Below are positions 4,722 to 31,168 of a DNA stretch of 32,300 nucleotides, in pieces. The DNA lies in assembly GCA_027623015.1 (NCBI GenBank), contig JAQBVR010000014.1:1-32300 (forward strand), given 5' to 3'. The stretch is from a bacterium. GTDB lineage: Bacteria; Patescibacteriota; Gracilibacteria; Peribacterales; Peribacteraceae. Both the position numbers and the translations under genes were made by a program. Each line of letters begins with the position of its first letter. Within the stretch, counting starts at the first letter, position 1. The notes below the pieces were generated by a model. It searched no databases, was not told the DNA's origin, and worked only from the letters and a program-made list of their open reading frames with translations.

Positions 4722-4819
4722 GATGATGCAGAGGAAACAAAAGATGCAGAGTACTCTTGCGTATGCTATAGTACATTTCTTCTGCATCTTCTGCATCTTC
4801 TGATTCTCCCCCTAGGTAT

Positions 4820-5389
4820 ATGGTTCTCATCAATGACAATTCATCGGCATTAGACATCGGAGATCACATGCCCGCCTTCAGTTTGCCTGCAACAGACGGT
4901 ATGACTGTTGATTCACACATGATCAAAGACCCAGTTATTGCTGTCGTTTTCACATGTAATCATTGCCCATACGCACAGGCATACGAAGAACGACTTGTAG
5001 AGTTGGCAGAACATTTCGATGAACTTGGTGTTCAGTTTGTATTGATAAATAGTAATGACGCAAATAACTTTCCAGAGGACTCCTTCGACATGATGATCAT
5101 CAAACATGACGAGCAGGGGTATCCATTCCCGTACTGCTATGACGAGTCTCAAGAAGTTGCAGTAGAATTTGGTGCTTTGTGTACGCCCCATTGTTTTGTG
5201 TTTGATCGCGATCGCACTCTGAAGTACAAAGGACGGATCGATAACAACTGGCAAGATGTCGCAGCAGTAACCGAACACAATCTTCGCGATGCCCTAGATG
5301 CACTTGTGTTAGACCTTGAGCCACCAGTGCATGAGGTCAACGCTATTGGTTGTTCGATCAAGTGGCGTGATTCACAGCTAGTCCATTAA
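4820..5389 (+). CDS. thioredoxin-family / AhpC-TSA-like redoxin
   Basis: MPAFSLPATDG...VVFTCNHCPYAQAYEERL (CxxC) and CTPHCFVFDRDRTLKYKGRIDN. Confidence 0.88.
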   Translation: MVLINDNSSALDIGDHMPAFSLPATDGMTVDSHMIKDPVIAVVFTCNHCPYAQAYEERLVELAEHFDELGVQFVLINSNDANNFPEDSFDMMIIKHDEQGYPFPYCYDESQEVAVEFGALCTPHCFVFDRDRTLKYKGRIDNNWQDVAAVTEHNLRDALDALVLDLEPPVHEVNAIGCSIKWRDSQLVH

Positions 5390-5393
5390 TTTG

Positions 5394-5444
5394 TTGAATT
5401 GCTGCATTGTTACAGTGCTAAACTGTTAAATTGTTCGCAGAGCG
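5394..5444. repeat. left arm of 8-bp-period inverted repeat flanking the four-helix-bundle gene
   Basis: Octamers aattgctg/cattgtta/cagtgcta/aactgtta/aattgttc followed by gcagagcg; 5428-5444 is a 17-nt perfect reverse complement of 5894-5910. Confidence 0.85.
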
Positions 5445-5477
5445 CGTGTGAAGTTTGATGATATATAATCATAGTAA

Positions 5478-5819
5478 TTACTTTTGTAGTTTTCTTTCAG
5501 TGAATTTTGATAGTGAATGTATTTCTCTTGGTAACTTTTTGAGTTCTGTAAGCATGTGGTCATATTGAGAGGTTGACAGCAGTTTTCTACGATGCGCTTT
5601 TTCATTCCAATCTAATGCCTCAAGAGTTGAAGCATATGCATAATTATAAAATTTGATCTTGTCTTTTTTTGTCTTTCTTCCAAAGCCTTCTGCAATATTT
5701 ACTGATATTGAATCTACTGATCTCACATATTGGTCTCCAATAGTCTTCTTTGCAAAAACATCCCAATTCTTAACAATGTTCCACATCTCATTCGAGATAT
5801 GGAATGCCACTGTGATCAT
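5478..5819 (-). CDS. four-helix bundle protein (23S rRNA intervening-sequence protein family)
   Basis: Sequence pattern ...DQYVRSVDSISVNIAEGFGRKTKKDKIKFYNYAYASTLEALDWNEKAHRR, characteristic of TIGR02436/IVP-type proteins. Confidence 0.87.
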   Translation of the reverse strand: MITVAFHISNEMWNIVKNWDVFAKKTIGDQYVRSVDSISVNIAEGFGRKTKKDKIKFYNYAYASTLEALDWNEKAHRRKLLSTSQYDHMLTELKKLPREIHSLSKFTERKLQK

Positions 5820-5893
5820 TGAGCTGAAGAAATTTTTTCTGAGGCATAATTAAAGATTTAGAATGAAGAGAAGTATCATGCCATCTGCTTATA

Positions 5894-5940
5894 CGCTCTG
5901 CGAACAATTTAGCAATATAACAATTTAGCAATCTAATAGT
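5894..5940. repeat. right arm of 8-bp-period inverted repeat flanking the four-helix-bundle gene
   Basis: Reverse complement reads gattgcta/aattgtta/tattgcta/aattgttc/gcagagcg. Confidence 0.85.
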
Positions 5941-6933
5941 TTAAGAGGCCGAACTAGAAGACTTAGGTTCAATATTCAAGATCATCACCTCAGGCCACGC
6001 AAAGAGTCGTGCGCGCAGTGCAGCTTCTCCAACTCCTCGTGTCAGTGCAAGTATAGAGCCGTTATCAAGTTCAAATATTCCTTGATCAAACGAAGGTCCG
6101 ATAGTCGTTGGAAGACTACTCAATGATCCTACATGCGGTAAGCGAATTTGCCCACCATGTGTATGACCTGCAACGATCAAGTCTGCATCGCTGCTTTGTT
6201 GCTCCTTGATGATGTCCGGATTATGGGAGAGTAAAATAGTTGGAAGATCTAACATACCAGTCATAGCCGCTGAAAGGTCGCTATCCCCACTCCAGAGGTC
6301 GTCGATTCCTACTAGATTGATGTTTTCGGCTCCCAACGATATGATAGTATATTCATTACGCAGTACCTGTATATCTAGTGCCTCAAGAGCGTCGGCGACA
6401 TCATCTCCTTTGTCGAGGAACTGTATCTTTTGACGCAGTATATTGCGCTTGTGCCCTCTATCATGATTCCCCAGTACGGCAAATACACCTGCAGATGCAC
6501 GAATATTGCCGAGAGGAGCAAGGTGAGAGAGGTCAGAACGTTCATCTTCTATCAAGTCTCCTGCGATCAAAACGATGTCTGGTAATGCTTGATTGATCTT
6601 ATCTACAATGCGCGAGAGGAATACCTCTCCTTTGTATGGACCTATGTGTGTATCGGAGATGACGACAATCTTTATCGATTCTTCTATAGGTAGATGCACA
6701 GTGTGCTCAGTGGTTACTATCATCTGTGGCTCCACAAAGGATCCATAGATGGTTAGACTGAAACCGATAAGCCCAATCAATCCAATAAAGACTACACCAA
6801 TTATCACAGATTTGTGTGCAGTACGGTTTCGACTCCACCAGAGCCAAGATGTAAGCATCATACAGAAGCCGATACTGATGAGTAGGAGGATGGCCAGATC
6901 CCACCAAAATATAGAAGGACGCAATAAGAACAT
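5941..6933 (-). CDS. membrane-anchored calcineurin-like metallophosphoesterase
   Basis: N-terminal TM helices, then VVISDTHIGPYKG, IAGDLIED, VLGNHDRG and VAGHTHGGQIRLP. Confidence 0.9.
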   Translation of the reverse strand: MFLLRPSIFWWDLAILLLISIGFCMMLTSWLWWSRNRTAHKSVIIGVVFIGLIGLIGFSLTIYGSFVEPQMIVTTEHTVHLPIEESIKIVVISDTHIGPYKGEVFLSRIVDKINQALPDIVLIAGDLIEDERSDLSHLAPLGNIRASAGVFAVLGNHDRGHKRNILRQKIQFLDKGDDVADALEALDIQVLRNEYTIISLGAENINLVGIDDLWSGDSDLSAAMTGMLDLPTILLSHNPDIIKEQQSSDADLIVAGHTHGGQIRLPHVGSLSSLPTTIGPSFDQGIFELDNGSILALTRGVGEAALRARLFAWPEVMILNIEPKSSSSAS

Positions 6934-6958
6934 ATGTGCATTGTAGCAATGTTCTCAG

Positions 6959-6993
6959 AATTCTTAATTCTAAATTCTCAATTTTAATTTACA
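6959..6993. repeat. single-arm heptamer tandem array (AATTCTN-like x5)
   Basis: aattctt|aattcta|aattctc|aatttta|atttaca, ending immediately before the ATG at 6994. Confidence 0.65.
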
Positions 6994-8625
6994 ATGAGTT
7001 CAATGTCCCTACGAAAAATATCATCAAAGCACCTAAATACTATATTAGTACTATGGAACTATTTGGCTGCGACACTTGTTATTACGCTGCTTTTTAGTGC
7101 AGTGGTGCCGTTTCATATGGATGAAGTTATAGCGTATCTATGGATTCGCTGTTACGACTACCCAGGCAATTTCGTGACACCAAATGACGACTGTACAGGG
7201 TTTTGGAGTATGAACGTACTTGGCACAGGTATCATCTTACCGCTTCGTGTATATTTCTACGCAGGAGCTATACCGTCATTGTTTTATTATCCTATCTATT
7301 TCATCTGGAAGAGCTACCTTTCTGCAAGGTGGCTTGGTGTGCTGTGGATACTCGCACAGTCTTATTGTATTCAACAGCTCTTTCGCATCCCGATGAAGCG
7401 GGTATTCATCGCACTTATACTCTTCTTACCCTACGTCTTTCAGCATATCGTCGATACAGGACCTGTGGGGTTACAGATAACAGGGGTATTTGTCATACTG
7501 TGGCTTACAAAGAAATGGGCACAGACACCTAAGCTCCTGTATCCAGTTTTTATTGCACTCATTGTGTTTATTTCCATCTGGACGAAGCTTACCTACGGAT
7601 GGATGATCCCTGGTATAATAGTTCTTCAGGCATTACTTCTGTTTGAAGAGCGGGATCATTTGAAAAAGATGGATACAGAGTATCTCCTCAACCAAGTGTA
7701 TCTAAGTGTCATCATCTGTACGGTCTGCACTGCAACTCTGCTCTTTTCTACAGAGGTAAACAACCCTACGCAGATGCCGCTTCTTGATCAGTTGTTTACA
7801 CAGTCAGGCAAAAGCTATTCGTTTGTGAGTATGGTAAACGATGTTCAGACATTGCCTGCACTGCACATATTGTTCAATCCCTTGGAGACAGCAAACCGAA
7901 TATATGAGATAAGGCCAGCAGGAGCATTGGCATATTTCTACAGTTTCCTTGTCTATGGATCTTTACCTTTTATTCTCTTTGCACTCTGGTGTGGAAAACG
8001 AATTTCTAGCGTAGCCTTACTGCGGTCGAGTGTAGGGTATGGCATTTTTCTGATGACTTTCTTCTTCATCGCAAAAAACCGTGAAGTCTGGACTATGCAT
8101 CATACCGTTCTTGCATTGCCATTCTTCGTCTTCGCTATAGCAGCGCTCTTTGCAGGTATCAAATGGAACCAAAGGCTGCGTCTCGCAACTTCATGCGTAG
8201 CAACGCTATTTATAGCACTCAATCTTTACTTCTTCCTCGTGATGATCTCCCAGCCAGTATTGAGCGAAGCCGACCCCTCTCGTCATACCATCAATCAGAT
8301 CCTCGCAGATAAACGCCTTGCGCAGCGCTATCTGTATATCAGTATCGACAGAGGGATGTACTTCTTGCAAGCTATGTATGGACACCCGGATCAGCGAAAT
8401 ATTTTTCGAGAGCCTCTCAAGTACCAGTGGCAAGTCGATGAGATCAAGACCGCTCTCTATGCAGATAACCGCAAGGCATTATTCATCTATGACACCAAGG
8501 TTCAGCTCACAGATCTAGACTATGTGCGAGAGCATTTTGATGTGGTTCGTTGTAGGGCTATTCCTGAGAATGCTGTCTGGCAGGTTCTCCTCGAAGCTGA
8601 TGAGGAGGGGAATACGTGTTTATAA
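6994..8625 (+). CDS. polytopic membrane protein, possibly GT-C-fold glycosyltransferase
   Basis: Many TM segments; early FHMDEVIAYLW acidic motif after TM1, as in GT-C/GT39-type proteins. Confidence 0.6.
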   Translation: MSSMSLRKISSKHLNTILVLWNYLAATLVITLLFSAVVPFHMDEVIAYLWIRCYDYPGNFVTPNDDCTGFWSMNVLGTGIILPLRVYFYAGAIPSLFYYPIYFIWKSYLSARWLGVLWILAQSYCIQQLFRIPMKRVFIALILFLPYVFQHIVDTGPVGLQITGVFVILWLTKKWAQTPKLLYPVFIALIVFISIWTKLTYGWMIPGIIVLQALLLFEERDHLKKMDTEYLLNQVYLSVIICTVCTATLLFSTEVNNPTQMPLLDQLFTQSGKSYSFVSMVNDVQTLPALHILFNPLETANRIYEIRPAGALAYFYSFLVYGSLPFILFALWCGKRISSVALLRSSVGYGIFLMTFFFIAKNREVWTMHHTVLALPFFVFAIAALFAGIKWNQRLRLATSCVATLFIALNLYFFLVMISQPVLSEADPSRHTINQILADKRLAQRYLYISIDRGMYFLQAMYGHPDQRNIFREPLKYQWQVDEIKTALYADNRKALFIYDTKVQLTDLDYVREHFDVVRCRAIPENAVWQVLLEADEEGNTCL

Positions 8626-8692
8626 ATCCCAAAACACAAATCCCAAAAGAGGTGCGAGGTTTTGAGATTTGGAGCTTGGGATTTGGGATTTT
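8624..8692. repeat. 7-bp-period inverted repeat between convergent stop codons
   Basis: Left aaatccc|aaaacac|aaatccc|aaaagag; right (reverse complement) aaatccc|aaatccc|aagctcc|aaatctc|aaaacc. Confidence 0.9.
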
Positions 8693-8699
8693 AAGAGCG

Positions 8700-11612
8700 T
8701 TATTTCTTCTTCTGTTTCTTAAACATCTCACCAAGGTATTCACCTGTGTAGCTACCTTTTGTCTTTGCTACTTCTTCTGGTGTGCCTTTAGCGATGATCT
8801 TTCCACCGCCACTTCCACCGTCTGGCCCAAGGTCTATGACGTAGTCGACAGATTTGATGATATCGAGGTTATGTTCTATCACTAAGACAGTATTGCCCTT
8901 CTCAACTAAGCGCTGAAGTACTTCAAGAAGCTTCTGGATGTCATCAAAGTGCAGACCAGTTGTAGGCTCATCGAGGATGTAGAAGGTTTTACCTGTTGCG
9001 CGGCGCATGAGTTCTGTCGCTAGCTTGATGCGTTGTGCCTCTCCACCAGAGAGCGTCGTAGCACTTTGGCCAAGGTGGATGTAGGCAAGACCAACATCAA
9101 AGAGTGTCTCTAATTTCTTTTTGAGTGCGGGGATAGCAGTGAAGAACTCCAAAGACTCACGTACAGTCATATTGAGAATATCTGCGATCGTCTTTCCTTT
9201 ATGTGTAACCTCAAGCGTCTCGCGGTTGTAGCGCTGACCTTTGCACGTCTCACACGTCACGTAGACATCTGGTAGGAAGTGCATCTCGATTCGTTTCAGA
9301 CCATCTCCTTCACACTCCTCACAGCGACCACCCTTTACGTTGAAGCTAAAACGACCTGGCTTGTAGCCACGAAGTTTGGATTCTGGAATCCCTGCAAAGA
9401 GGTCGCGGATATCTGTAAATATACCTGTGTATGTTGCAGGATTACTGCGTGGCGTACGACCAATAGCAGACTGGTCGATGACGATAGCTTTGTCGAGTTC
9501 GCCTAGGCCTGTTATAGATTGTACATTTTGCGGACGAGCTTTTGCTTTGTTGAGCACATGGAGAAGTTCTGGTCCGAGTATTCCATGGATCAAGCTCGAC
9601 TTTCCAGAGCCCGATACACCTGTGATGCCGATCAGACACCCCAGAGGGATTTTGACGTCGACGTGCTGTAAGTTATGGTGATGTGCATCGGTGATAGTGA
9701 TGTACTTTCCGTTTCCTTTACGCCTCTTTTCTGGGATCTCTATAAATTTCTTTCCACTTAAGTATTGTCCAGTCACAGAGTTTTTATTTGCAACCAACTC
9801 TTCTGGTGTTCCTTGTGCTATAACTTCACCACCATATTTACCTGCACCAGGGCCAATCTCAAGGAGGTAGTCTGCAGTTTGGATAGTCTCTTCGTCATGC
9901 TCCACAACGATCACTGTATTTCCGAGATCACGTAGTTTCGTCATTGTAGAGATGAGTCGTGCGTTGTCTCTTTGGTGGAGACCGATGCTTGGCTCATCGA
10001 GAACGTAGAGAACTCCTTGGAGAGCAGAGCCTATTTGTGTCGCAAGACGTATTCGCTGAGCTTCACCGCCAGAGAGTGTTGCCGCACTACGCGAGAGAGT
10101 CAGGTAGGTCAGTCCGACATTCTCAAGGAATGTAAGCCGAGAGATCACTTCCAGTAAGACTTTTTTTACTATCGTAAAGTCATACGCACTGAGGGGCGCG
10201 ATTGTAGACGAAGTTATCCATTCTTTTTCACGGTGCTCTGGTGGTACAAGAGCGACGAAGAATGATTTGGCCTCGTTGATACTCATCTCCGTACCATCGA
10301 CGATGTTAGAGTCACCGACAGTGACACCAAGGATTTCACGCTTAAGTCTGCGTCCGTTGCAGCTTATACAAGAAAGTTCTTCCATATACCCTTCTATCTG
10401 ACTTCGCACGTAGCTACTATCTGTTTCACGATGTCGTCGTTCAAGGTTTGGAACCACTCCTTCATATTTTGTTTCGTATGTGCCATCAAAACTAGCGGAT
10501 TCATAATCCACCATCAGTTTTTTGTCGTACCCATTGAGGATGATGTCCTTATGCTCATCCGATAGTTTTTGCCACGGTATTTGCATACTAAATCCTACTT
10601 CTTCAGAGAGCGTTTCGAGAATCTTTACCATGAAACCCATACGGCTTGCAGATGTTGTCCAAGGATGGATGGCACCTTCTGCCAAGGAGAGCTTAGAGTT
10701 TGGGATGAGTGTTGGTTCATCAATACGAAGAATAGTGCCAAGTCCATGACAGCTTTCACAGGCGCCATGTGGAGAGTTGAATGAAAAACTGCGTGGCTCG
10801 ATACGGGGGATGTCGATCTCTGGATGATTTGGACAGGAAAAATCTTCACAAAACCGTGCCTCCTCATTTGTATCTGCATCGACAACTATCATAGATCCTT
10901 CCCCTTTTTTCAGACAGAGTTCAACAGAGTCTGCTAGCCGAGATCTGTTTGGATTTGACATATTTTCTTTAATTTCAAGGTCGCGCACCACCATACGGTC
11001 GACGATGATTGCGATGGTGTGGTGTTGTTTAGGATCGAGTTTGATATCCTCATCCACAGTGACTATTTGACCATCTATGCGCATACGTACAAATCCTTCT
11101 CTGCGTATCGCATCCAGAATCTTGATGTGCTCACCTTTGCGTCCATCGACGATAGGAGCGAGGAGAAATACCTTTTTACCTTCTTCCATACTTGCGATAG
11201 TATCGACGATCTTACTCGATGGTTGTTTTTGGAGTTGCTCATTACACTCGGGGCAGTGTACCTTGCCCACCTTAGCCCACAGTAGTCGCATATAGTCATA
11301 GATTTCTGTCGTTGTTCCAACAGTAGAACGAGGATTTCGCGGTGCTGTTTTTTGGTCTATGGAGATGGCAGGACTCAATCCCTCTATGCTTTCAACATCT
11401 GGCTTCTCCATCTGCGATATAAATTGTCGTGCATATGCAGAAAGACTTTCCACATACCGCCGTTGCCCTTCTGCAAATATCGTATCAAATGCGAGAGAGG
11501 ACTTTCCAGATCCTGAAAGACCAGTAATGACAGTAAGTTTATTACGTGGGATCTCGACGTTGATATTTTTAAGATTGTGCATCTTTGCACCCTTTACAAT
11601 GATTTTATCCAT
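8700..11612 (-). CDS. uvrA: excinuclease ABC subunit A
   Basis: Two ABC ATPase modules, [53 protein letters not shown], zinc-binding CxxC motifs, 970 aa. Confidence 0.98.
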
Positions 11613-11730
11613 AATTATGAGATATGTAAAAAACGCCCGCAGTCGTTGTGCCGCGTAGCAGAACGCTAGCTTAGCTACAAAACAGGCTCTTGTCTAGGGT
11701 AAAGGCTAAGTTTGGATAAATTACCAATGT

Positions 11731-11834
11731 GTTCCTAGTTCCTAGTTGCTCGTTGCTGGTTCCTTATAATACACATTCTTCAAAATACGCAAAAAAAGAA
11801 GCAAACTAGGAACAAGGAACTAGGAACAAGCAAC
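11731..11834. repeat. 7-bp-period inverted repeat in uvrA/ribE divergent region
   Basis: Left gttccta|gttccta|gttgctc|gttgctg|gttcctt (11731-11765); right (reverse complement) gttgctt|gttccta|gttcctt|gttccta|gtttgctt (11799-11834). Confidence 0.92.
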
Positions 11835-11855
11835 TCTACGCAGTAGAATAGCTCC

Positions 11856-12437
11856 GTGTTCACAGGAATCATCGAATCAATGGCTTCCGTTAAAGATCGT
11901 ACAGATACGCAACTTATCGTAGGGCGTCCAGCTCATTTCGACGATATCCGTATCGGTTCAAGCATCGCAGTATCTGGTGTATGTCTCTCTATTGTTGATT
12001 TTTCGGATGCACATATGACATTTGATGTCATCGATGAAACTTGGTCTCGGTCAAACTTTGTCTCCCTTCAAGAGGGAGACAAAGTAAATCTTGAGCGTGC
12101 CATGAAAGCAAGTGATCGACTTGAAGGGCACATTGTCCAAGGTCACTGTGAAGTTTCAGCAGAAATCTGCAATCGAAGTAGTGACGGTATAGATGTGGTC
12201 TTGCCCGAGGACCTTCTTCCATTTGTTGTCGTAAAAGGTTCCATCACACTCGACGGCGTATCGCTTACCGTTGCAGCGCTCAAAGGAGATATTTGTTCCG
12301 TTGCCCTTATTCCACTCACACTTGAGCGCACTACACTTGGTATACGAAGAGAAGGGGAGTGTGTAAATGTAGAGACGGACATTCTTATACGCCACGCAAA
12401 AAAAATAGCTCACTGTTCACCTGCACATGCGCACTGA
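11856..12437 (+). CDS. ribE: riboflavin synthase alpha chain
   Basis: MFTGIIES start motif (GTG start), duplicated lumazine-binding domains. Confidence 0.93.
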   Translation: MFTGIIESMASVKDRTDTQLIVGRPAHFDDIRIGSSIAVSGVCLSIVDFSDAHMTFDVIDETWSRSNFVSLQEGDKVNLERAMKASDRLEGHIVQGHCEVSAEICNRSSDGIDVVLPEDLLPFVVVKGSITLDGVSLTVAALKGDICSVALIPLTLERTTLGIRREGECVNVETDILIRHAKKIAHCSPAHAH

Positions 12438-12903
12438 TACACCTCCTCTCGTACGAGATTACATCAATCCTAACTGGAAGATTGGCATCGTCACATCGTC
12501 GTTTTACAAAGAGGAGATAGACAGCTTGGCAGAAGGTGCTATAGACGAGCTTTTAAAAGCTGGTATTGTACAATTACATTGTAAACGATATGACGTTCCA
12601 GGCTCATTTGAGATTCCGCTTATTGGTTCAGCTCTAGCCAAAAAAGGCGAAGTGGATGCACTCATCGGTCTCGGTATAATTGTTGAAGGGCAGACGCAAC
12701 ATGCACGTCTTCTTGCAGAGCAAACTGCACGAGGAATTATGGATGTGCAGCTACAGTATGGTATACCTTTTGCTTTTGAAGTTCTGTATGTAGATGCGCT
12801 AACAGATGCGCAAAATAGATGTTCAGGCTCTGGAAATAAAGGTAAAGAAGCAGCTAGTGCAGTCTTGCACGCTCTTGCCACAATCGAGCATATCAATTCA
12901 TGA
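12427..12903 (+). CDS. ribH: 6,7-dimethyl-8-ribityllumazine synthase
   Basis: IGIVTSSFYKEEI, VPGSFEIPL and ALIGLGIIVEGQTQH; overlaps ribE by 11 nt. Confidence 0.93.
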   Translation: MRTDTPPLVRDYINPNWKIGIVTSSFYKEEIDSLAEGAIDELLKAGIVQLHCKRYDVPGSFEIPLIGSALAKKGEVDALIGLGIIVEGQTQHARLLAEQTARGIMDVQLQYGIPFAFEVLYVDALTDAQNRCSGSGNKGKEAASAVLHALATIEHINS

Positions 12904-12961
12904 AACCTTGCACATCTGGGGCGTATCGCGGTAGCATATGCGGTAACCCTCCCAAAGATCT

Positions 12962-14359: not shown

Positions 14360-14370
14360 AACATCTTAAT

Positions 14371-14457
14371 AGAGAAATAAGGGACTGGAAGTATTGATAC
14401 CAAGAAAGGTTTTTTTGAGTAGAACTCTCTTATTACACTTATTTCCCTTATTTCTCT
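14371..14457. repeat. 9-bp-period inverted repeat upstream of ribBA
   Basis: agagaaataaggga (14371-14384) pairs with tcccttatttctct (14444-14457); right arm nonamers tattacact|tatttccct|tatttctct. Confidence 0.85.
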
Positions 14458-14492
14458 TCATAAATAGGACCTCATCATCCATAATCAATTCA

Positions 14493-15704: not shown

Positions 15705-15711
15705 TGACGAA

Positions 15712-15802
15712 ATTCAAAAAAACAAAAAACTAAAAAAAACAAAAATTTAGTGGTGACTCTCATCGCTTTTGAAGTTTGGAATTTGTGATTTGTAATTTAA
15801 TT
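15712..15802. repeat. 7-bp-period array with weak A-rich opposing arm, downstream of ribBA
   Basis: Right side tttgaag|tttggaa|tttgtga|tttgtaa|tttaatt (15768-15802); left side A-rich attcaaa/acaaa-type words. Confidence 0.6.
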
Positions 15803-15888: not shown

Positions 15889-15907
15889 ATATATATAATG
15901 TATTACG

Positions 15908-15934
15908 AAAAAAACCAAAAAAAACCAAAAAAAA
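15908..15934. promoter_or_regulatory. three A-tracts phased at about 10 bp (predicted bent DNA)
   Basis: gaaaaaaaccaaaaaaaaccaaaaaaaacg upstream of the H1-like gene. Confidence 0.55.
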
Positions 15935-16152
15935 CGTGTAGAAAATTGACGGGTAAAATCATGCAAAAAACACACTGCTTTACACGTACTTTTACGCTTT
16001 GTATAAACAAAAACACAGTAGTTCACTCTAAAAGTGCATAACACACTAAAACATAATTGTATTTTTACGCTTCGCAAAAGCCCTTTTCGTTTGTGTAAAG
16101 ACCCGTAAAATTACATTCAATCCTTTCCTTTTATTTATTCCACCCTTGTTAT

Positions 16153-20474: not shown

Positions 20475-20580
20475 GGTTGGTCGTTACTCGTTACTCGTTA
20501 CTCGTTTTACATATGTACACAGGCAATTATTTTAGGTAGTAGTATAATAAACCAGTAACTAGTAACTAGTAACGCGTAAC
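20475..20580. repeat. 7-bp-period inverted repeat between convergent stop codons
   Basis: Left gttactc x3 plus gtttta; right (reverse complement) gttacgc|gttacta|gttacta|gttactg|gttta. Confidence 0.93.
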
Positions 20581-20587
20581 AAAAAGG

Positions 20588-22403: not shown

Positions 22404-23474
22404 ATGGACGCACCAACCAAGAAATTCCTCTTCGATCTGCTCTCTACTCCAAGCCCTACAGGGTTTGAGCATAACGGACAACGTGTCTGGGCAGACTACA
22501 TCCGCCCTTTTGCAGATACTGTCCAAAACGATGCTTATGGCAACGTCTGGGCTACTATCGAAGGTACAGAGAAGGGCAAAAGCCTCATGTTCGAGGCTCA
22601 CGCAGACGAGATCGGCTACATGGTGAAATATGTCTCCAAAGATGGATTCCTCTCTGTAAGCTCCATAGGAGGAAGTGACGTGGCTACTGCTAGAGGCAGA
22701 TGGGTGACGTTCTTCGGAGATAAAGGTGAGGTACAAGGAATCATCGGAAACACTGCCATCCACATTCGAGACCGCAAAGACGGAGACAAAGCTCCAGAGG
22801 TGCATGATCTCTTTGTAGACATCGGTGCGAAGAGTGACAAGGACGTAGAGAAGATGGGCATCCGTGTCGGACACCCTGGAGTGTATACAGATACCGTAAA
22901 AGATCTTGGCAAGAACTGCATCGCAGGTCGTGCAATGGATAACCGCATTGGTGGATTCATTCTTACACAAGTTTTGAAGAACCTTGCAAAAACAAAACCA
23001 AAGTGGACTATTCATTTTGTAAACGCAGTACAAGAAGAGATCGGCGGACATGGTGCGAAGATGATCTCACATCGGCTCAATCCTTCGGCTGCTCTTGTCT
23101 TCGATGTGTGTCATTCCACAGACACTCCGGGCATCAAGCATGCACAGCACAGCCAGATAAATATGAACGAAGGCCCTACAGTGACACATGGTTCCTGTAA
23201 CCACCCTGCTGTTGTGCAGAGACTCATCGATACGGCAAAGAAAGAAAAGATTGGTATCCAGCATGAAGCCACGTCTCGTTACAGTGGCACAGACACAGAC
23301 CAGATCTTCCACATTCAAGAGGGGATACCAAGCGCACTTGTGTCTATCCCATTGCGTTACATGCACAGCGTTGTAGAGATGATCGACCTACGTGATGTCG
23401 ACAAAGCTATAAAGCTTCTCACAGGATTTGCGAAGTCACTTGCACCGAAGGATGAGTTTTCCGTGAAGATCTAA
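22404..23474 (+). CDS. M42-family metallopeptidase (glutamyl aminopeptidase/endoglucanase M type)
   Basis: LLSTPSPTGFE, EAHADEIGYMV, AMDNRIGGFIL, VQEEIGGHGA and PLRYMHSVVEMIDLRD. Confidence 0.93.
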   Translation: MDAPTKKFLFDLLSTPSPTGFEHNGQRVWADYIRPFADTVQNDAYGNVWATIEGTEKGKSLMFEAHADEIGYMVKYVSKDGFLSVSSIGGSDVATARGRWVTFFGDKGEVQGIIGNTAIHIRDRKDGDKAPEVHDLFVDIGAKSDKDVEKMGIRVGHPGVYTDTVKDLGKNCIAGRAMDNRIGGFILTQVLKNLAKTKPKWTIHFVNAVQEEIGGHGAKMISHRLNPSAALVFDVCHSTDTPGIKHAQHSQINMNEGPTVTHGSCNHPAVVQRLIDTAKKEKIGIQHEATSRYSGTDTDQIFHIQEGIPSALVSIPLRYMHSVVEMIDLRDVDKAIKLLTGFAKSLAPKDEFSVKI

Positions 23475-23475
23475 A

Positions 23476-23748
23476 CTAATTCATACTCATTCCTCGTGGC
23501 CCTTGTTGTATGAATAGCATCTCTGCAAACTCTTCTCGTAGTTCTGCAATTCCACGAAGCATAGACTGTTCAATTATCCATGTCATATCTGCTACTTGGT
23601 CGGGATCTGAAAATCTCTCACGAATCTCTGCCATTTCTCCGTACGAATCAGCCTGTAACTCTGCGATCAGCGCATGCATCTCTGCATGTGGATTATTCTC
23701 TAGGGATGAGCCATCACCGCCACCGAATATAGCATCAAGTTTTTGCAT
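23476..23748 (-). CDS. hypothetical protein, 90 aa
   Basis: ORF tightly abutting convergent M42 gene. Confidence 0.5.
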   Translation of the reverse strand: MQKLDAIFGGGDGSSLENNPHAEMHALIAELQADSYGEMAEIRERFSDPDQVADMTWIIEQSMLRGIAELREEFAEMLFIQQGPRGMSMN

Positions 23749-23853
23749 GGACAGAGTGTGAAGATGGCCGACAGTATAGGCAAATATGTGGATTGGGCAA
23801 GTCTGTACTGTTCCTGTTATGTGCTTCTATAAGCCAAAAAAACGGGGTATATA

Positions 23854-25485
23854 TCACACTGCTGCATATTTATTGTGAGCATCTAGGAGAGGAAGCTTTC
23901 CATCAATAACGCACATATCGTGTACTCTTTGAACAGCTCGAGTAGCATCTTCTCTATTGATCCCGTAGATCATTGCGTTGTCTCCTCGACTAATGGATAC
24001 GATATTCACCGGAGCACCTGCAAGGGTGATGGCAAGAGAGGCGCGTGTATTTTCTCCGATGCCAGAAAGATTATTCCCGATGCAGTAGATAAGCGTGTCA
24101 TCCGTAAATCGTTCGATGCTGATATCGCGAAACTTTTCATCAAGAAATGTTTCGAAGTCATCAAGTACACCATCAAAATTAGGAACAATATCAGTATTGA
24201 GTACATCGTTACCAAAGGTAATGGTGTAGGTCACAGCACTCGGTGGTGTTAGGTCGATGGAAATATTTCGTTCAGCAAACCACGGTACAATCTTGGCGAT
24301 AAATCCTGGACCAAGCATCTCTTCTGATCGGATCAAGATAGAAGTCGGTATACTTTTCGTTGCAACGATCTCTATGCCATTTGGCTCTGTGGGTGCATTG
24401 CCAATAAGTGTAGAGTTTTCTGCAAGATTTTCTTCTATAGGATTACAGACGACAAGGGGAATGTCATTACGTTTGCCGATATTGAGTGACGGTGCTTGCA
24501 CCGCGCCACCATCTGCACCTGCATGATAATCAAACAGTTCCATGGCAGCGTTGTATGTGAGGTACCGCACGACGCGTGTATTTTGAATCTTGTTTGGGTC
24601 ACCACTTCGTATGGGGTGATCTCCTTCTATAACACAGACAACTTTGTGACCCATATTTTGCACAGTGGCTGAAACTATTAGTGCAGTTGTTTCGGTGTAT
24701 CCTCTCTCCCAGCCCACTCCTGACCGGTATCCCCCAAGTACAACGGTATTAGTATCTCCAGCGAGAACATCTTCTAATTGAGACCTTGTATGATGCTCTA
24801 TGCGATCAATCGTTTGATCTCGGTTGTCTCGTGCATCTTCTGGTCCAAAAGCAAATGCACTTTCGGCTAAGCCATCATTCGAAATCATTGTAGGGGCTAA
24901 GCCTCTATTCCGTAGATACACGTTGTAGATCTCGGCTGCCATATCTTCCGCCATCCCAGTGATGGAGTAATAGGTGTCTTTTGTTTTTACGAGCCAGTCG
25001 TTTCCGATGCGCACAAGGTCATCTGGGGAACATCGGTTGATGATCCTGCGAATCGTTTCCGTGTGATATCGCACCATGCCATCCATTTGTGCGTGGGTAA
25101 TGCCTTTTTCTGTAATCTTCTCATCTGCAGCTACTTCTGTACCTACCAATCCTAATGTGAAGCGCTCAATCCGTGTTATGAGATCGTGTGCTTTGCCTTT
25201 ATTTCCTTCCCTGAGGGCGCTTCCTAGAGCAATCAGGTGAGAAGTCGTATTGAACCCTGCCTTCTCGTTGCCATCTGTATCGAAGTCGTGCACATCTGGA
25301 TGGCGCAGCTCGTCATACTCTTTCCCTCCACGTATAGCAGACGTTACAATAATCTGCTTACCCTCCTCTGCTATATCTGCATTTTGCTTTAGTCGACCTG
25401 CAGCTGTGCCGCCGATCTTGCGTACACGCCAGTCAGCGTCTTTGATAGCGTCGAGTCCTGTGCGGGTGGGTCCTGAGTTGTTCAT
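23854..25485 (-). CDS. aspartokinase-like protein (amino acid kinase fold + ACT) with degenerate catalytic motifs
   Basis: RKIGGTAAGRL (cf. KFGGTS), VVLGGYRSGVGWERGYTETTALIVSATVQNMGHKVVCVIEGDHPIRSGDPNKIQNTRVVRYLTYNAAMEL, C-terminal ACT-like repeats. Confidence 0.75.
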   Translation of the reverse strand: MNNSGPTRTGLDAIKDADWRVRKIGGTAAGRLKQNADIAEEGKQIIVTSAIRGGKEYDELRHPDVHDFDTDGNEKAGFNTTSHLIALGSALREGNKGKAHDLITRIERFTLGLVGTEVAADEKITEKGITHAQMDGMVRYHTETIRRIINRCSPDDLVRIGNDWLVKTKDTYYSITGMAEDMAAEIYNVYLRNRGLAPTMISNDGLAESAFAFGPEDARDNRDQTIDRIEHHTRSQLEDVLAGDTNTVVLGGYRSGVGWERGYTETTALIVSATVQNMGHKVVCVIEGDHPIRSGDPNKIQNTRVVRYLTYNAAMELFDYHAGADGGAVQAPSLNIGKRNDIPLVVCNPIEENLAENSTLIGNAPTEPNGIEIVATKSIPTSILIRSEEMLGPGFIAKIVPWFAERNISIDLTPPSAVTYTITFGNDVLNTDIVPNFDGVLDDFETFLDEKFRDISIERFTDDTLIYCIGNNLSGIGENTRASLAITLAGAPVNIVSISRGDNAMIYGINREDATRAVQRVHDMCVIDGKLPLLDAHNKYAAV

Positions 25486-25512
25486 GATAGTAAGGAATAT
25501 GAGTTAAAGAAA

Positions 25513-25536
25513 ACCCCTTCTTTTGGAAGGGGCTGT
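25513..25536 (-). terminator. rho-independent terminator, minus strand
   Basis: ccccttc-ttttg-gaagggg flanked by the T-run on the minus strand (ggggttttcttt). Confidence 0.75.
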
Positions 25537-25660
25537 TTCAAATTTTGAGGTTATAGCAGCTCTACCTTCCCATGAGGGGGGTCTTCTTCATCTGCTTAGT
25601 CTTAGTGGCGAAGTGGCGCATCGGGCTTACTGTAGGGCATAAATTAGAAAAGTCAAATTT

Positions 25661-25978
25661 CTATGCCCACATTCTTTTACCATTGGCGAGGATGCGAGGG
25701 TGGCCACTTTTAATTCCATCTTCTGACTCCAGTATTTCTACAGATCGACCATGTGTATCTACAGCAATGCCATGGATCATGCAATACTCAGGAGGTTTTT
25801 CGGTTAAGCCTTACATAGGTGCAATCCATTCAGCTTCATCAAAAGCATTGATAGTTGCTGGATCAAATATACGATGTACACGCATGTGTTGAAATGGCTG
25901 AAATCGAGGGTCTAAATCACTTGCTAAAGTTTTACATGCTGTAGTTTCAGGCATAGGTGTTCTTTCAGTGGTAGACAT
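25661..25978 (-). pseudogene. small ORF interrupted by in-frame TAA (positions 25811-25813)
   Basis: MSTTERTPMPETTACK...DEAEWIAPM*GLTEKPPEYCMIHGIAVDTHGRSVEILESEDGIKSGHPRILANGKRMWA*, same frame across the stop. Confidence 0.5.
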
Positions 25979-26032
25979 AGTATAAATTGGAAATACTGAA
26001 TAAAAAATGTATACAAACTTTTGGGAGAAAGC

Positions 26033-26062
26033 AAAAAATCTCCTCACTTCTTGGATGAGGAG
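26033..26062 (-). terminator. rho-independent terminator, minus strand
   Basis: ctcctca-cttcttgga-tgaggag with T-run on the minus-strand 3' side (aaaaaa on plus). Confidence 0.75.
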
Positions 26063-26208
26063 CTCGTATCTATCTAATTTTATACACGCAGCTGCCCTTC
26101 CGCCGTAAGGAGGAGTCTTTCGACTGTGTTCAGGAGAGCCTTGAACTGGTGTGTCATATAATTCACGAGAATATTGTACAACTACAGACTGGTTTGTCAA
26201 TAGACCAC

Positions 26209-27162
26209 CTAATTTCTACTCGCAATATACGCAGATCCATACCTTCTTTGTGTTGCTGTCGGTAGATCAGATTCACTATGGACAAGGTGCTGAAGCTGTA
26301 ATGCAGCAGCAGAAAACCAGTTTTCGTACTTGGGTCGTACATAGTGAGATATGCCTACAACGGGGATGATCTCCATCTCTACTTGGCCATCTTCATAGTT
26401 CATATATCGTTCTACAAATCCATGAAGTGATCCATGCCAAAGATATGCATTGTGAGCATTGTCTACGATGAGATGTGTATGGTCATCGAGTCGAACATGT
26501 GAAAACTGATGCCATGGTTCACGAAAGCGATTATCTGGGTCTTTTGGCCAAATAGAGATGATACTACTGGGGATGTTGTGTTGGTTAAACATCTGGTTTG
26601 CATCTTCTCCATGGTCATTACAGTCGATAGCGTCATCATCCATTGTAGAAGCATCATTTGGAGACATGCGATAGGTTACAGCCCATTCGACAGAAGAACT
26701 GATATTACCATAAACACGACCTGTAGCTTCTATTGGATCTTCTAAAATTTCAGAACCAAAGTTTCCAAGTTCACTTGCAGCTACTTGTGTCATTTCGCTT
26801 ATTTGCATTACATCTTTGCGTTGCTTGGGAGCGGAGATAGGCATCATGATAAAACGGAGATCTTGAACCTGAATCTTTGGATAATGGTACCGCACAATAC
26901 GAATGATATTTTCTATTGAATAGTCTTGTCCGATATTTCTTGCGATGACTTTTTCTTGTGCATCTTGCTCTAGAGGTTTCGAAAGTTCACTTCCAGTTGC
27001 AGTCAATGCTGTGACTGCAGCAATGATGTTTACTATCATGTTATTTACATAAGAGCCGCGCTTGTTCTGCTCAGGTTTCTTTGGGGCAGATGGGGGAGAG
27101 TGCAGTCTGCGCATTAGACACATCGTACTGTGAAGTAGATTGCACTCGCAAGGAACTTCCAC
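26209..27162 (-). CDS. hypothetical protein, possible transglutaminase-like Cys/His/Asp protein
   Basis: AIDCNDHGEDANQMFNQHNI...WHQFSHVRLDDHTHLIVDN; start uncertain (MIVNIIAAV possible). Confidence 0.5.
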   Translation of the reverse strand: MEVPCECNLLHSTMCLMRRLHSPPSAPKKPEQNKRGSYVNNMIVNIIAAVTALTATGSELSKPLEQDAQEKVIARNIGQDYSIENIIRIVRYHYPKIQVQDLRFIMMPISAPKQRKDVMQISEMTQVAASELGNFGSEILEDPIEATGRVYGNISSSVEWAVTYRMSPNDASTMDDDAIDCNDHGEDANQMFNQHNIPSSIISIWPKDPDNRFREPWHQFSHVRLDDHTHLIVDNAHNAYLWHGSLHGFVERYMNYEDGQVEMEIIPVVGISHYVRPKYENWFSAAALQLQHLVHSESDLPTATQRRYGSAYIASRN

Positions 27163-27177
27163 TTGCCTAGTTCTGCT

Positions 27178-28206
27178 TTACCACGAGAGAGATCCTTCAA
27201 ACTGCACCGACTTCTCACCATCTGTTACTGCGCCAATGCTAAAGCTTTCGTGGCCTTTGTCTTTCAAATGTTTCATCACATCATCGACTGCATCGGGTGA
27301 TACGACAATTGCGATACCCACTCCCATGTTGAATGTTTTCATCATCTCAGCGTCTTCTACTGAACCCGCTTCGCGGATCGTATGAAAGACAGGAGGCATC
27401 TGCATCTTGCTCAGATCTACCACAGCATTTTTATCTGCAGGGAGGATGCGGTTAAGGTTTCCTTGTACACCACCACCGGTGATGTGTGCCATGCCATGGA
27501 CAGCGTCGTTTCCAAAGAGTCCTTTGAGCGCATGGTAGTAGCATGTGTGTGGCCGCATAATAGCTTCGAGGAATGTCACACCCGCACACTCACTTGTTTG
27601 CAGACTGGGGTCCTTGTCCATAAGGGAACGGACAAGAGTGTAGCCATTGGTATGAAGTCCGTTCGATGCGACTGCGATGATCTGGTCACCAGATTGGATC
27701 TTCGATCCGTCGATGATCTTCGATTTCTCCACGACTCCTACGACGCTTGCGGCGAGAGCGTATACACCAGGTTCAAGTACTCCCGGCTGCTCTGTTGTCT
27801 CTCCACCAGTCAGAACACAGTCTTGCTCTTTGCATGCATCGGCAAATCCTTTGACGATCTCTGTCACTACAGACTTCTCCATCTTTCCACAGATGATGAG
27901 GTCTTGTGTGTACTGCGGAGTCGCACCCATCACAGCGATGTCATCTATAAGGTGGTTGATCGTATCGAAACAGATCGATCGGACAAAGCCATGGTCGAAG
28001 GCAAGCTTCTGTTTTGAACCTGGCTCTTCGGTCTTGAGTACGAGGATGGGGTGTTCATATCCAGGAAACTTTCCATCTACAAGTGAGGCAAATGCGCCCA
28101 AGGTATTGAGTACACGCGGGTCTCCACTATCGATGCTTTCGCTCATGGAACGCTTGGCATCATCTGCTGCATCTATATCTACTCCTGCGTCTTTGTATGT
28201 GGTCAT
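27178..28206 (-). CDS. purM: phosphoribosylformylglycinamidine cyclo-ligase
   Basis: YKDAGVDIDAAD, DDIAVMGATP, VLTGGETTEQPGV, SNGLHTNGYTLVR and HITGGGVQGNLNRILP. Confidence 0.96.
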   Translation of the reverse strand: MTTYKDAGVDIDAADDAKRSMSESIDSGDPRVLNTLGAFASLVDGKFPGYEHPILVLKTEEPGSKQKLAFDHGFVRSICFDTINHLIDDIAVMGATPQYTQDLIICGKMEKSVVTEIVKGFADACKEQDCVLTGGETTEQPGVLEPGVYALAASVVGVVEKSKIIDGSKIQSGDQIIAVASNGLHTNGYTLVRSLMDKDPSLQTSECAGVTFLEAIMRPHTCYYHALKGLFGNDAVHGMAHITGGGVQGNLNRILPADKNAVVDLSKMQMPPVFHTIREAGSVEDAEMMKTFNMGVGIAIVVSPDAVDDVMKHLKDKGHESFSIGAVTDGEKSVQFEGSLSW

Positions 28207-28240
28207 GACTCAATGCTAACATCTGAGTTACTTATTGTGT

Positions 28241-28326
28241 AAGGGAAATAAGGGAAATAAGTGTAATAATAGAAATAAGAGACTCCCTTATTCCCCTTAT
28301 TTCTTTTATTCCTCTTATTTCCTTTG
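28241..28326. repeat. 9-bp-period inverted repeat in purM/28359 divergent region
   Basis: aagggaaat|aagggaaat|aagtgtaat|aatagaaat|aagaga then tcccttatt|ccccttatt|tcttttatt|cctcttatt|tccttt, almost no loop. Confidence 0.93.
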
Positions 28327-28358
28327 GTCTAGAAAGCCAGAGGCTTAATCATTACACT

Positions 28359-28865
28359 GTGACTATGAAAACTTCGAATCGCACATTTCAGATAACTCTA
28401 CTCCTCCTCGCAGTTGCGGATGGATCGCTGGGATACCTGTTTCTTTTTGATCCTGCGACTATCAGTAGGATCTATGGAGGAGCCCCTTTGGATAACATGC
28501 ATCTCTACCTCAGTGTAGGGTTAGGGTGTTTGCTTATTACGTTTGCCATTGGTGCCTTGTTCGCATTCTTTCGACCTATTCAGAATGCAGCCATAGCTAT
28601 TCTCCTTATACTTTCGCACTTCTCTCTCTTCATCGCAGATGTCGTTGCCCTTGCACGGAATCAGATGGTTGCTACAGACCTACTTCCAGAGATGGGCTAT
28701 TACCTTACTATTTCTTTATTATTAATTAGGTTTTACCCGTCGAAGATTGAATCGAAGGATCTAGAAGACCAAAAAGATCCAGAGGAACCAAAGGAAAGAG
28801 ACATATCTTCCTTGCCATCCACATCTTCTGAGTCCTCTGCATCCTCCAGTTCTACGACTGAGTAG
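28359..28865 (+). CDS. hypothetical membrane protein with Ser-rich tail
   Basis: Four predicted TM segments; C-term SSLPSTSSESSASSSSTTE. Confidence 0.7.
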   Translation: MTMKTSNRTFQITLLLLAVADGSLGYLFLFDPATISRIYGGAPLDNMHLYLSVGLGCLLITFAIGALFAFFRPIQNAAIAILLILSHFSLFIADVVALARNQMVATDLLPEMGYYLTISLLLIRFYPSKIESKDLEDQKDPEEPKERDISSLPSTSSESSASSSSTTE

Positions 28866-29631
28866 CTACGATCTTGATCCTCTTTCCTCCTTCAGTATCT
28901 AGAGACGCCTTTTCGAGGGGGATCCTTCTGTCTTCTTTAGAGAATTCTTTTTCTACTGTATTGATCTGACCATCGGAAGAGTCTAGAACAAGTTTTCCAT
29001 TATTGAGCACGAGGGTGCGAGTTTGGAGTTGATCTACGATGCTCATGTCATGTGTAGCTAGAACGACGGTAGTACCATTTTTATTGATGAGTTGCAGAAG
29101 ATTGATCATCATGGCAGATTCCTCTGCATCGAGGTTACCGGTAGGTTCATCTGCGAGAAGGATCATAGGGTTATGCACGATAGCTCTTGCGATAGCAGTG
29201 CGCGCCTTCTCTCCTGCAGAGAGTGCACTCGTCATCGTCTTTGCTTTGCGTAGCAAGCCAAGGTCAGACAGTACAGCTTCTACGCGTTTAGAGATCATCT
29301 TCTGTGGGATGCCGCATACCTCTAGTGGAAAGGCTACATTTTCGGCAACAGTTTGGTTCCAGAGCAGTTTGTAGTCTTGGAAGACGACACCCACGCGCCT
29401 GCGAAAGAGTTGCAGTGCTGTGGGTGGTAAGCTTCTTAGTTCAACACCATCAATGATGATCTTTCCACTAGTTGCTTCTTCAGCACCGATAAGTAGATGT
29501 AAGATTGTAGATTTGCCAGAACCACTTGGCCCAGTAATACAGACAAGTTCTTTCGGGTGTATATCAAAGCTGATGTCTTCTAGGACTGAATCACCCTTTA
29601 TCACCTTGCCGACGGATTCCAAGGTTATCAT
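28852..29631 (-). CDS. ftsE: ABC ATPase, FtsE-like
   Basis: ITGPSGSGKSTILHLLIG, VVFQDYKLLWNQTVAENVAFPLEVCG, LLADEPTGNLD; start set at MITLESVGKV. Confidence 0.8.
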   Translation of the reverse strand: MITLESVGKVIKGDSVLEDISFDIHPKELVCITGPSGSGKSTILHLLIGAEEATSGKIIIDGVELRSLPPTALQLFRRRVGVVFQDYKLLWNQTVAENVAFPLEVCGIPQKMISKRVEAVLSDLGLLRKAKTMTSALSAGEKARTAIARAIVHNPMILLADEPTGNLDAEESAMMINLLQLINKNGTTVVLATHDMSIVDQLQTRTLVLNNGKLVLDSSDGQINTVEKEFSKEDRRIPLEKASLDTEGGKRIKIVATQS

Positions 29632-29674
29632 GCCTTTTATTATACTTAAATATGTGCAAGTGTCACTCTTCAAA

Positions 29675-29745
29675 GTTCTAGGTTGTATGTTGAAAGTTGT
29701 ATGTTATGTATTGAGACCTAAAAATTACAACGTATAACTTACAAC
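29675..29745. repeat. 7-bp-period inverted repeat overlapping rlmE 3' end
   Basis: gttctag|gttgtat|gttgaaa|gttgtat|gttatgt|attgaga then ttacaac|gtataac|ttacaac. Confidence 0.85.
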
Positions 29746-30329
29746 TGTTTAGATAGTATAACGTATACTTCTGAACTCCTATCCCGACTTGCAGTTGCGA
29801 TAGCCACGTGCACGTATTGCCAGTTGAGCTTCAGTTCGCGGAGAAATTCATCAAAGTCAGAACCGCGGAGTACTTTCATCACACATGTTCCACCACTTTT
29901 AAGGTGAACCTCAGCTATGTCTACGACTGACTGAGAGAGTTCGATTGACTTCCATTGGTCAACATCTTTTATGCCACTGGTTGCAGGTGCAAGGTCTGAG
30001 ATGATGAGGTCGAATTTCAAAATCTTTTCTGTGGCCAAGATCTTTTCTATAGCATCAATATCAGTAATATCTTCTTTATATAGTGTTACTCCTTCGATGG
30101 GTTCGATATTCTGAAGGTCGATACCGATAATCCTACAGCGCTTATACTGATCTGCAACGTACTGCAGCCAGCTTCCAGGGGCAGCACCAAGATCTAAAAC
30201 AGTCATGCCATTTTTGAGAAGCCGATACTTTTGGTCAAGCTCAGCAAGCTTATACACACTACGAGCACGGAAGCCTTCCTCGGCTGCACGCCGGGACCAT
30301 TTATCGTTGGGGGTGTATCGTTGTGGCAT
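29739..30329 (-). CDS. rlmE: 23S rRNA (uridine-2'-O-)-methyltransferase RlmE/FtsJ
   Basis: GFRARSVYKLAELDQKYRLLKNGMTVLDLGAAPGSWLQY, ISDLAPATSG, FDEFL. Confidence 0.94.
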   Translation of the reverse strand: MPQRYTPNDKWSRRAAEEGFRARSVYKLAELDQKYRLLKNGMTVLDLGAAPGSWLQYVADQYKRCRIIGIDLQNIEPIEGVTLYKEDITDIDAIEKILATEKILKFDLIISDLAPATSGIKDVDQWKSIELSQSVVDIAEVHLKSGGTCVMKVLRGSDFDEFLRELKLNWQYVHVAIATASRDRSSEVYVILSKQL

Positions 30330-31003
30330 CAGAGTAAGGGGGTTTTTTTAGGTATTCCTACTTCACGTGGGTACTTCTTTCCGATCTTCCCGCGTTTGCT
30401 CAGTACAAGGATCTGTCGCTTGCCCCAGTCTCCAGGAAGTTCGTATTCATATCCTTTCTCAAGGGTACAACTAAGTTCAGCCCTAGCGAGTAAGCTGTCT
30501 TTGAGTTCTTGGTCGATGGTCATGCTCTTCCAGCAGAGGATATGCCCTCTCATCTTCACAAGAGGAGATGCATACTCTAGTAGCGTATTGAGTGGAGCGA
30601 CTGCTCGAGCAGTGACGACATCAAACTGTTCGCGAAATGCGGAGTCTCTCCCTATGTCTTCCAGTCGACCAGAGAGCAACTGAATATTCTGTATATCCAT
30701 CGCATCACAGATCCGACCTATTGCATCGATCTTCTTTTGTGTGGAATCAATTCCCGTGAATTTCGTCTCTGGCATAAGCAGCGCAAGAGGGAGCAGCGGG
30801 AAACCTCCACCAGTCCCGATGTCTGCGATATTCTTTGCACCTGCAAACAGCTCCAGATCTATCGCTGCAACACTATCGAGCACGTTGCCCACCCAACAGT
30901 TCTCTTCTGTACGAAATGCAGAGAGGTTCAGTTTTGCATTCTCTTCGAGAAAGCATGTACAGAGTTCATGGAGCCGCTTTTCGAGGTCGGGTGAAATTGT
31001 CAT
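30329..31003 (-). CDS. rsmG: 16S rRNA (guanine-527-N7)-methyltransferase
   Basis: KLNLSAFRTEENCWVGNVLDSVA, DIGTGGGFPLLPLAL, VTARAVAPL, KKYPREVGIPKKTPL. Confidence 0.94.
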   Translation of the reverse strand: MTISPDLEKRLHELCTCFLEENAKLNLSAFRTEENCWVGNVLDSVAAIDLELFAGAKNIADIGTGGGFPLLPLALLMPETKFTGIDSTQKKIDAIGRICDAMDIQNIQLLSGRLEDIGRDSAFREQFDVVTARAVAPLNTLLEYASPLVKMRGHILCWKSMTIDQELKDSLLARAELSCTLEKGYEYELPGDWGKRQILVLSKRGKIGKKYPREVGIPKKTPLL

Positions 31004-31049
31004 TTGACCTATACTATAGACCTTTAGGATACTTTTTTTGAATCAATCG

Positions 31050-31168
31050 AAGAGAAATAAGTGAAACGAAGTGGAATAAGGGAATTTTAAATAGATATGT
31101 ACAAACGCCATTGAAATTCTATGCAGGGAATTCTTTTATTTCCCTTATTTCTTTTATTGCCCTATCTA
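31050..31168. repeat. 9-bp-period inverted repeat in rsmG/pyrE divergent region
   Basis: Left aagagaaat|aagtgaaac|gaagtggaat|aagggaatt; right (reverse complement) agggcaat|aaaagaaat|aagggaaat|aaaagaatt. Confidence 0.85.

Follow-up and report, generated by a model that had tools for sequence, protein, structure and literature searches.

Intervening sequences of 23S rRNA genes that bear an S23p gene are known as parasitic elements of rRNA genes, for example in Coxiella and Leptospira (PMC4990558), and heptamer repeats have been reported without explanation (PMC4692102, PMC6344855, PMC4679880), those of Xanthomonas and Nostoc, GGGAATC and GGGGA(C/T)T, forming inverted pairs for which no origin was given and generally no link with mobile elements was described (Rehm et al., PMC4692102). 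The present analysis concerns a stretch of 32,300 nucleotides (hereafter the window), which is contig C28 of a 46-contig, 1,099,175-bp genome of the Peribacteraceae, and in whose intergenic gaps short words of 7, 8 or 9 bp are repeated in tandem, usually as the two arms of a hairpin. With a probability that we put at roughly 0.8, these word arrays serve as terminal inverted repeats for a mobile element of ~420 bp whose sole gene encodes a PF05635 protein (IVP, or S23p), and the gene-less hairpins are non-autonomous copies or remnants whose ends are those of an IVP element still resident or since lost.

The layout recurs across phyla, unit length follows the IVP tree, words follow relatedness, gene-less arrays match resident elements, and at the borders of genes the elements are present in some plasmids and absent from others, the best pairs showing a 5-bp duplication of the target. 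Tying the arrays to one widespread gene family would supply a concrete and testable origin for the heptamer repeats that crowd many bacterial genomes, give PF05635 a likely role, and make the rRNA intervening sequences a special case of a broader element; no account linking heptamer repeats to PF05635 or to intervening sequences was found in open-licence PubMed Central, a search that leaves preprints and most subscription papers outside its range.

IVP genes and their flanking arrays

The original prediction had taken positions 5394–5940 of the window for a hairpin with a plain loop, but a PF05635 gene lies inside it, and the locus consists of the following features:

5391–5435, no strand: left 8-bp word array of the IVP element, starting 2 bp past the stop codon of the gene at 4820–5389 (Tandem Repeats Finder, TRF, period 8; inverted partner of 5903–5944)
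5478–5819, minus strand: PF05635 (23S_rRNA_IVP, four-helix bundle) gene inside the hairpin (Pfam E 1.4e-20)
5903–5944, no strand: 8-bp word array (AACAATTTAGCAATAT) forming the right end of the IVP element (TRF score 61, period 16; inverted counterpart of 5391–5435)

Solved structures of the family comprise 2gsc (Xanthomonas campestris) and 2rld. Seven PF05635 genes were present in the genome, the window copy included, and five of them lay between clear inverted arrays (GTTACTC, GTTGCGG, AATAAGRGG, AAATTGC-like words and the 8-mer of the window); one of the others had weak 9-bp arms and one had no arms. Across the class to which the genome belongs, an arm score of at least 14 was recorded at 92 of the 96 testable IVP loci (97 in all) as against 252 of 949 random places (medians 23 and 12), the best lag among the array-flanked loci being 7 in 43 cases, 9 in 27 and 8 in 13. 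When GTDB genomes were scanned independently with a single IVP subfamily, 80 loci were obtained, from Xanthomonas, Pseudoxanthomonas, Thiobacillus, Clostridia, Treponema, Bacteroidetes, Acidobacteria, Planctomycetes and Patescibacteria among others, where arms scoring at least 15 (67/80) and periodicity (68/80) stood against 7 and 4, respectively, of 148 windows shifted by 900 bp within the same loci; the best period was 7 (51 loci) or 8 (14 loci), and never 9. On cyanobacterial plasmids, inverted arms with a best period of 7 were present at 13 of 14 IVP loci, one of the 13 being only weakly periodic.

Unit length was then read against a tree of 144 IVP proteins, which had few columns and many unresolved forks and in which the branch leading to the period-9 clade was supported. 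That single clade held 23 of the 24 period-9 proteins, so placed that 3 changes sufficed as against a mean of 22.4 after shuffling (none of 500 as low), and the corresponding values for all periods were 24 and 48.2 (none of 200), periods 7 and 8 swapping often. One and the same genome can hold IVPs of period 7 and of period 9, so unit length is no property of the host; it goes with the lineage of the IVP gene, and for this reason the form of the repeat is kept. The similarity of arm words between genomes grew with IVP identity, from a mean of 0.47 below 30% to 0.63 at 60–70% and 0.77 above 70% (only 8 pairs), a correlation exceeded by none of 200 permutations; the arms thus pass down together with the gene, and it is the word that drifts.

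Two further observations were made at IVP loci. Telomere-like 6-bp arms (TTAGGG, GGGTTG) occurred at loci L149, L154 and L157, and a relative, G027, of which 800 kb were analysed, was rich in AACCCT arrays and held 27 period-6 arrays. IVP elements also sit between cas6 and cas4 of type I-D CRISPR operons at L324 and L326 (Anabaena sp. 90, P. galeata), cases that suggest insertion rather than function and that may be the source of the listing of 23S rRNA IVP among CRISPR adaptation modules (PMC10910872); the cas6–cas4 gap of Dolichospermum (L349, 440–700), without an IVP, holds another long hairpin, GTAGGTTGGGTT...AACCCAACCTAC.

Dispersed arrays in the genome and the window

For a genome-wide census, the genome was rebuilt from 79 stretches plus the window, 972 genes were called with a hexamer model, and 715 gaps were examined at periods 4 to 12, an array being called at a tandem autocorrelation of at least 11 per gap and one dinucleotide shuffle of each gap serving as the control. 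Arrays of period 7 were present in 101 gaps, of period 9 in 46 and of period 8 in 4, every other period being confined to at most 3 gaps; the shuffled gaps yielded 0, 0 and 1 at periods 7, 9 and 8. The observation behind the original prediction was confirmed, and of its three unit lengths 7 and 9 were upheld, but 8 proved rare in this genome. A complementary array scoring at least 14 within 700 bp accompanied 96 of 200 intergenic arrays, as against 5 with reversed sequence as the control, and the 88 hairpins had a median loop of 24 bp and a biased polarity, the left arm being G-rich in 64 and C-rich in 22. The 7-bp arrays often measured 31 bp, slightly over four units, and within arrays both length variation and homogenised units were seen. 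Among gaps of at least 80 bp, occupancy was alike in convergent (26%), tandem (28%) and divergent (28%) positions, all three kinds of gap having been named in the original prediction.

The further claim that each locus has a word of its own was not borne out: about ten word families were distinguished, including AAATCCC, GTTACTN, GTTGCGN, GTTGTAN, AAATTGC, ACTCCCN and the 9-mer AAATAAGNG, with 16 arrays for AAATCCC, ~30 for the AAATAAG-G types and 10 for AACGAGT, and the window hairpins beginning at 14371, 28241 and 31050 share one word type. Around half of the 19 9-mer loops examined resembled, in either orientation, a common core of ~48 bp (TTTGGAAGTATTGAT...ATGCAGAGAA), and an AAGCACC unit was common to several AAATCCC hairpins. 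The array loci are dispersed element families rather than unrelated inventions. Examples of the core, which represents a gene-less element subfamily, stand at C5:3885-3933, C2:40141-40188, C4:6325-6374 and window 14385-14428.

Gene-less arrays were compared with the arms of resident and foreign IVP genes. Away from IVP genes, 74 of 183 period-7 arrays in the genome matched resident IVP arms and 7 of 183 matched those of G027, the corresponding values for gene-less period-9 arrays being 39 and 0 of 81. Gene-less arrays of G027 matched its own IVP arms in 22 of 42 cases at period 7 and 11 of 19 at period 8, with none at either period for the arms of the other genome; period-8 vocabulary thus occurs where a period-8 IVP resides. 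In xanthomonad genomes with GGGACCS/GGGGATC IVP arms, matches to GGGNNYS x3-GGG numbered ~190 to 360 against 0 to 51 in the reversed control (overlaps counted). No 7- or 8-bp arrays were found in ~110 kb of four relatives in which no IVP gene was detected, nor any arrays in 50 kb of Escherichia coli K-12, a species for which the PF05635 control search gave no match.

The other array loci of the window, none with an assigned strand, are as follows:

4729–4802: 9-bp hairpin (CAGAAGATG) with a promoter-like loop, in a divergent gap (TRF and partner search; fold z −4.5)
6959–6989: 7-bp array AATTCTN, one arm (TRF)
8624–8692: AAATCCC hairpin of the genome-wide family that also bears an AAGCNCC unit (TRF; fold z −2.0)
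11731–11834: GTTCCTN hairpin (TRF and partner search; fold z −5.5)
14371–14458: 9-bp AAATAAGNG hairpin with a loop like the shared ~48-bp core (partner search; fold z −3.7)
15712–15802: weak 7-bp arrays with an A-rich left arm, doubtful (TRF; fold z −1.1)
20475–20580: GTTACTN hairpin sharing its word with the IVP element arms of contig C37 (word families and partner search; fold z −2.7)
28240–28325: 9-bp AAATAAGNG hairpin sharing its word type with the IVP element arms of contig C17 (TRF and partner search; fold z −3.4)
29669–29745: GTTGTAN hairpin (TRF; fold z −2.3)
31048–31168: 9-bp hairpin of the AAATAAGNG type (TRF; fold z −1.9)

Ten of the eleven predicted word-array loci were recovered as described; 15712–15802 was weak, 28 of 200 shuffles folding equally well. 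Nine window hairpins were folded, with z from −1.1 to −5.5 and eight at −1.9 or below, and at 20475–20580 the variable position of GTTACTN appeared as periodic single mismatches in the stem, a modelled pattern that would fit recognition of the spacing of units and not of their whole sequence. A search of the window against Rfam returned two tRNAs only, with no family matching the hairpins and no rRNA. The predicted repeat class is accordingly real, dispersed and without an Rfam match, but its description as new requires qualification, heptamer arrays with inverted pairs being known in Xanthomonas and Nostoc (PMC4692102). Apart from these hairpins, positions 15905–15935 hold a tandem repeat of AAAAAAACCA (x2.8) beside an AT-rich stretch with recurring TGTATATAA-like words.

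A further ~35 in-frame period-7 arrays lie within housekeeping genes named by homology (MurG, MurD, IscS, UvrC, CysS and others), as at C30:7307-7344, C38:15675-15706 and C6:8280-8309, and encode peptides such as TRNPQPATRN and NPKPKTQNPK. Alignment of IscS, SOD, MurG, CysS and MurD to solved homologues suggested little or no change of length, and comparison of in-gene arrays with relatives gave gains (+8 residues in a UppS-like protein, +9 in another) and losses alike. In-place overwriting inside genes was provisionally set aside on account of these gains and losses, the arrays probably just sitting in length-variable loops.

Filled and empty sites and the weighing of explanations

Among close cyanobacterial plasmid relatives, sites were filled in some and empty in others, the empty ones having neither gene nor arrays. 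In the best pairs, Trichormus ATCC 29413 reads AAAAAGTAAT[insert]GTAATTAACAAAT where Nostoc linckia (blastn, 98.4% identity) reads AAAAAGTAATTAACAAAT, with an insert of 423 bp and a duplication of 5 bp, GTAAT, where the upstream gene has its stop codon; for plasmids a and c of Nostoc ATCC 53789 the insert is 413 bp and the duplication TTCTA. Additional filled and empty pairs, with flanks that align less cleanly, were recorded at the integrase site of Calothrix, at one site in Aulosira and in a second gap of the Nostoc cluster. All of these plasmid IVP elements sit between protein genes and not in rRNA. One plasmid site held a gene-less hairpin in Brasilonema and a truncated gene in Nostoc C052, and a gene-less hairpin was polymorphic on plasmids, not in the window's species, being present in L340 and L346 and absent from L341, L343 and L345. 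In the first gap, L340 and L346 have the same arms at one site around wholly different loops, as if cargo had been swapped or two elements had hit one site. The mechanism originally proposed, copying and complementing of a word at each site, does not agree with arrays that arrive together with the element.

How such an element might move can be outlined from its parts. Each end comprises ~3–5 tandem units, with a length (7, 8 or 9 bp) typical of the IVP lineage and a word free to drift. The solved Xanthomonas IVP protein is a homopentamer (PMC4990558), and a pentameric ring could bind the repeated units of the folded ends, its geometry setting their spacing; evenly spaced binding of this kind would account for a fixed unit length combined with a free word. 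IVP might recruit a host nuclease or polymerase to carry out the chemistry of movement, and RNase III might cut transcripts within the hairpin and so render insertion beside genes tolerable, as in rRNA intervening sequences (PMC4990558). That IVP itself moves the element, or sets its unit length, is inferred. The wider proposition, to which we give slightly less than even odds, is that a non-enzymatic ring protein acts as a ruler fixing the spacing of units (7, 8 or 9 bp) and not their sequence, that it writes and homogenises arrays in trans throughout the genome, housekeeping genes included, and that bacterial heptamer repeats and rRNA intervening sequences both stem from it.

Several results weigh against the arrays being the ends of an IVP element. 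We know of no catalytic activity for IVP, and the element has no assigned strand-transfer enzyme; neither a reverse transcriptase nor a Y1 transposase (Y1_Tnp/RAYT) was found in this genome. Both were discarded as movers, the RAYT/Y1 transposase by that absence, and the reverse transcriptase of diversity-generating retroelements by its absence here together with a presence in relatives that does not track IVP. Target duplications were imperfect or absent at several junctions, and the empty sites come from cyanobacterial plasmids and not from the window's own species. None of 35 gene-less period-9 arrays in G027 matched its IVP arms, and two relatives without a detected IVP, G006 and G007, carry arrays, perhaps as relics, so that arrays can do without a resident IVP, unless the gene has been lost or left unassembled. 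The in-gene arrays, in their loops of variable length, mostly lack the partner arm, and they suggest that an arm can by itself land or grow at other places.

Some of these points would suit an explanation in which arrays arise on their own, say through slippage of the polymerase, and IVP elements do no more than insert by preference into the loops of such hairpins, just as the tips of 23S helices are replaced by rRNA intervening sequences: arrays without a detected IVP in two relatives, the many hairpins that hold no gene, and the single arm set with two different loops in L340 and L346 would all be expected. It is nonetheless improbable, given that empty sites are devoid of arrays, that unit length tracks the IVP clade and not the genome, that words track IVP relatedness, and that period-8 vocabulary occurs where a period-8 IVP resides.

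Still less probable are simple-sequence repeats free of any element, generated by replication slippage and quasi-palindrome template switching, with the length of 7 set by the contacts of DNA polymerase, as has been suggested (cited in PMC4679880 and PMC4692102). Slippage is favoured by the varying length and homogenised units of arrays and by arrays that are single-armed or inside genes; it is the likely cause of unit homogeneity within arrays and may adjust copy number after insertion. Against this explanation stand the period spectra, 7 and 9 without 8 in one genome as opposed to 7 and 8 in another, the coupling to one gene family, and the precision of the insertions.

Host terminators or other regulatory hairpins are very unlikely: most hairpins fold stably, and of arrays whose nearest gene end is a stop codon about half lie within 10 bp of it, but divergent gaps are equally occupied, so that the arrays are not confined to transcript 3' ends (the original prediction had likewise set simple rho-independent terminators aside), close plasmid relatives differ in presence, and a gene often lies inside the hairpin. 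Least likely of all are repetitive extragenic palindromic (REP) sequences or bacterial interspersed mosaic elements (BIMEs) moved by a RAYT transposase, for although intergenic hairpin families do match the flanks of a resident gene, no Y1_Tnp was present and, as first predicted, the word varies here in unit arrays whose form is kept.

Comparison with known systems

The Avd accessory proteins of diversity-generating retroelements have a related profile, bAvd matching one IVP below its cut-off, but this genome has no reverse transcriptase. REP/BIME sequences and miniature inverted-repeat transposable elements (MITEs) likewise have gene-less inverted-repeat copies matching the flanks of a resident gene, and MITEs further resemble the present element in being short, duplicating their target and being polymorphic for presence; the differences are that the ends here are arrays of variable words shared with a resident IVP, and not with a known transposase. 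The TAACTGA repeats of Beggiatoaceae (PMC4679880) are also dispersed intergenic heptamer direct repeats suspected of horizontal transmission, but comprise one word, are mostly single-armed and lie near start codons.

In common with S23p-bearing rRNA intervening sequences, which in Coxiella measure ~428–444 nt and show a sporadic spread suggestive of horizontal transfer (PMC4990558), the present element places the same gene family (S23p/PF05635) within complementary stem-forming ends, and it shares that size and spread. Unlike them, it lies outside the 16S and 23S rRNA genes, at gene borders, its ends are tandem 7-, 8- or 9-bp arrays, and its gene-less copies are numerous.

The heptamers of Xanthomonas and Nostoc and the short tandemly repeated repetitive (STRR) sequences of cyanobacteria share with it units of 7 bp, a preference for about four of them, an arrangement in inverted pairs of fixed orientation, and a position just downstream of the preceding gene. 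Xanthomonas and Nostoc heptamers have been described as G-quadruplex or simple-sequence repeats with no gene or mobility link, and differ in that AAATTGC, GTTACTN and AAATAAGAG here have no GGG tract and that 9-bp and 8-bp classes are additional. The arms of Xanthomonadaceae IVP genes bear GGGACCS/GGGGATC words that resemble the Xanthomonas heptamers, and the element may explain the heptamer repeats of Xanthomonas and Nostoc.

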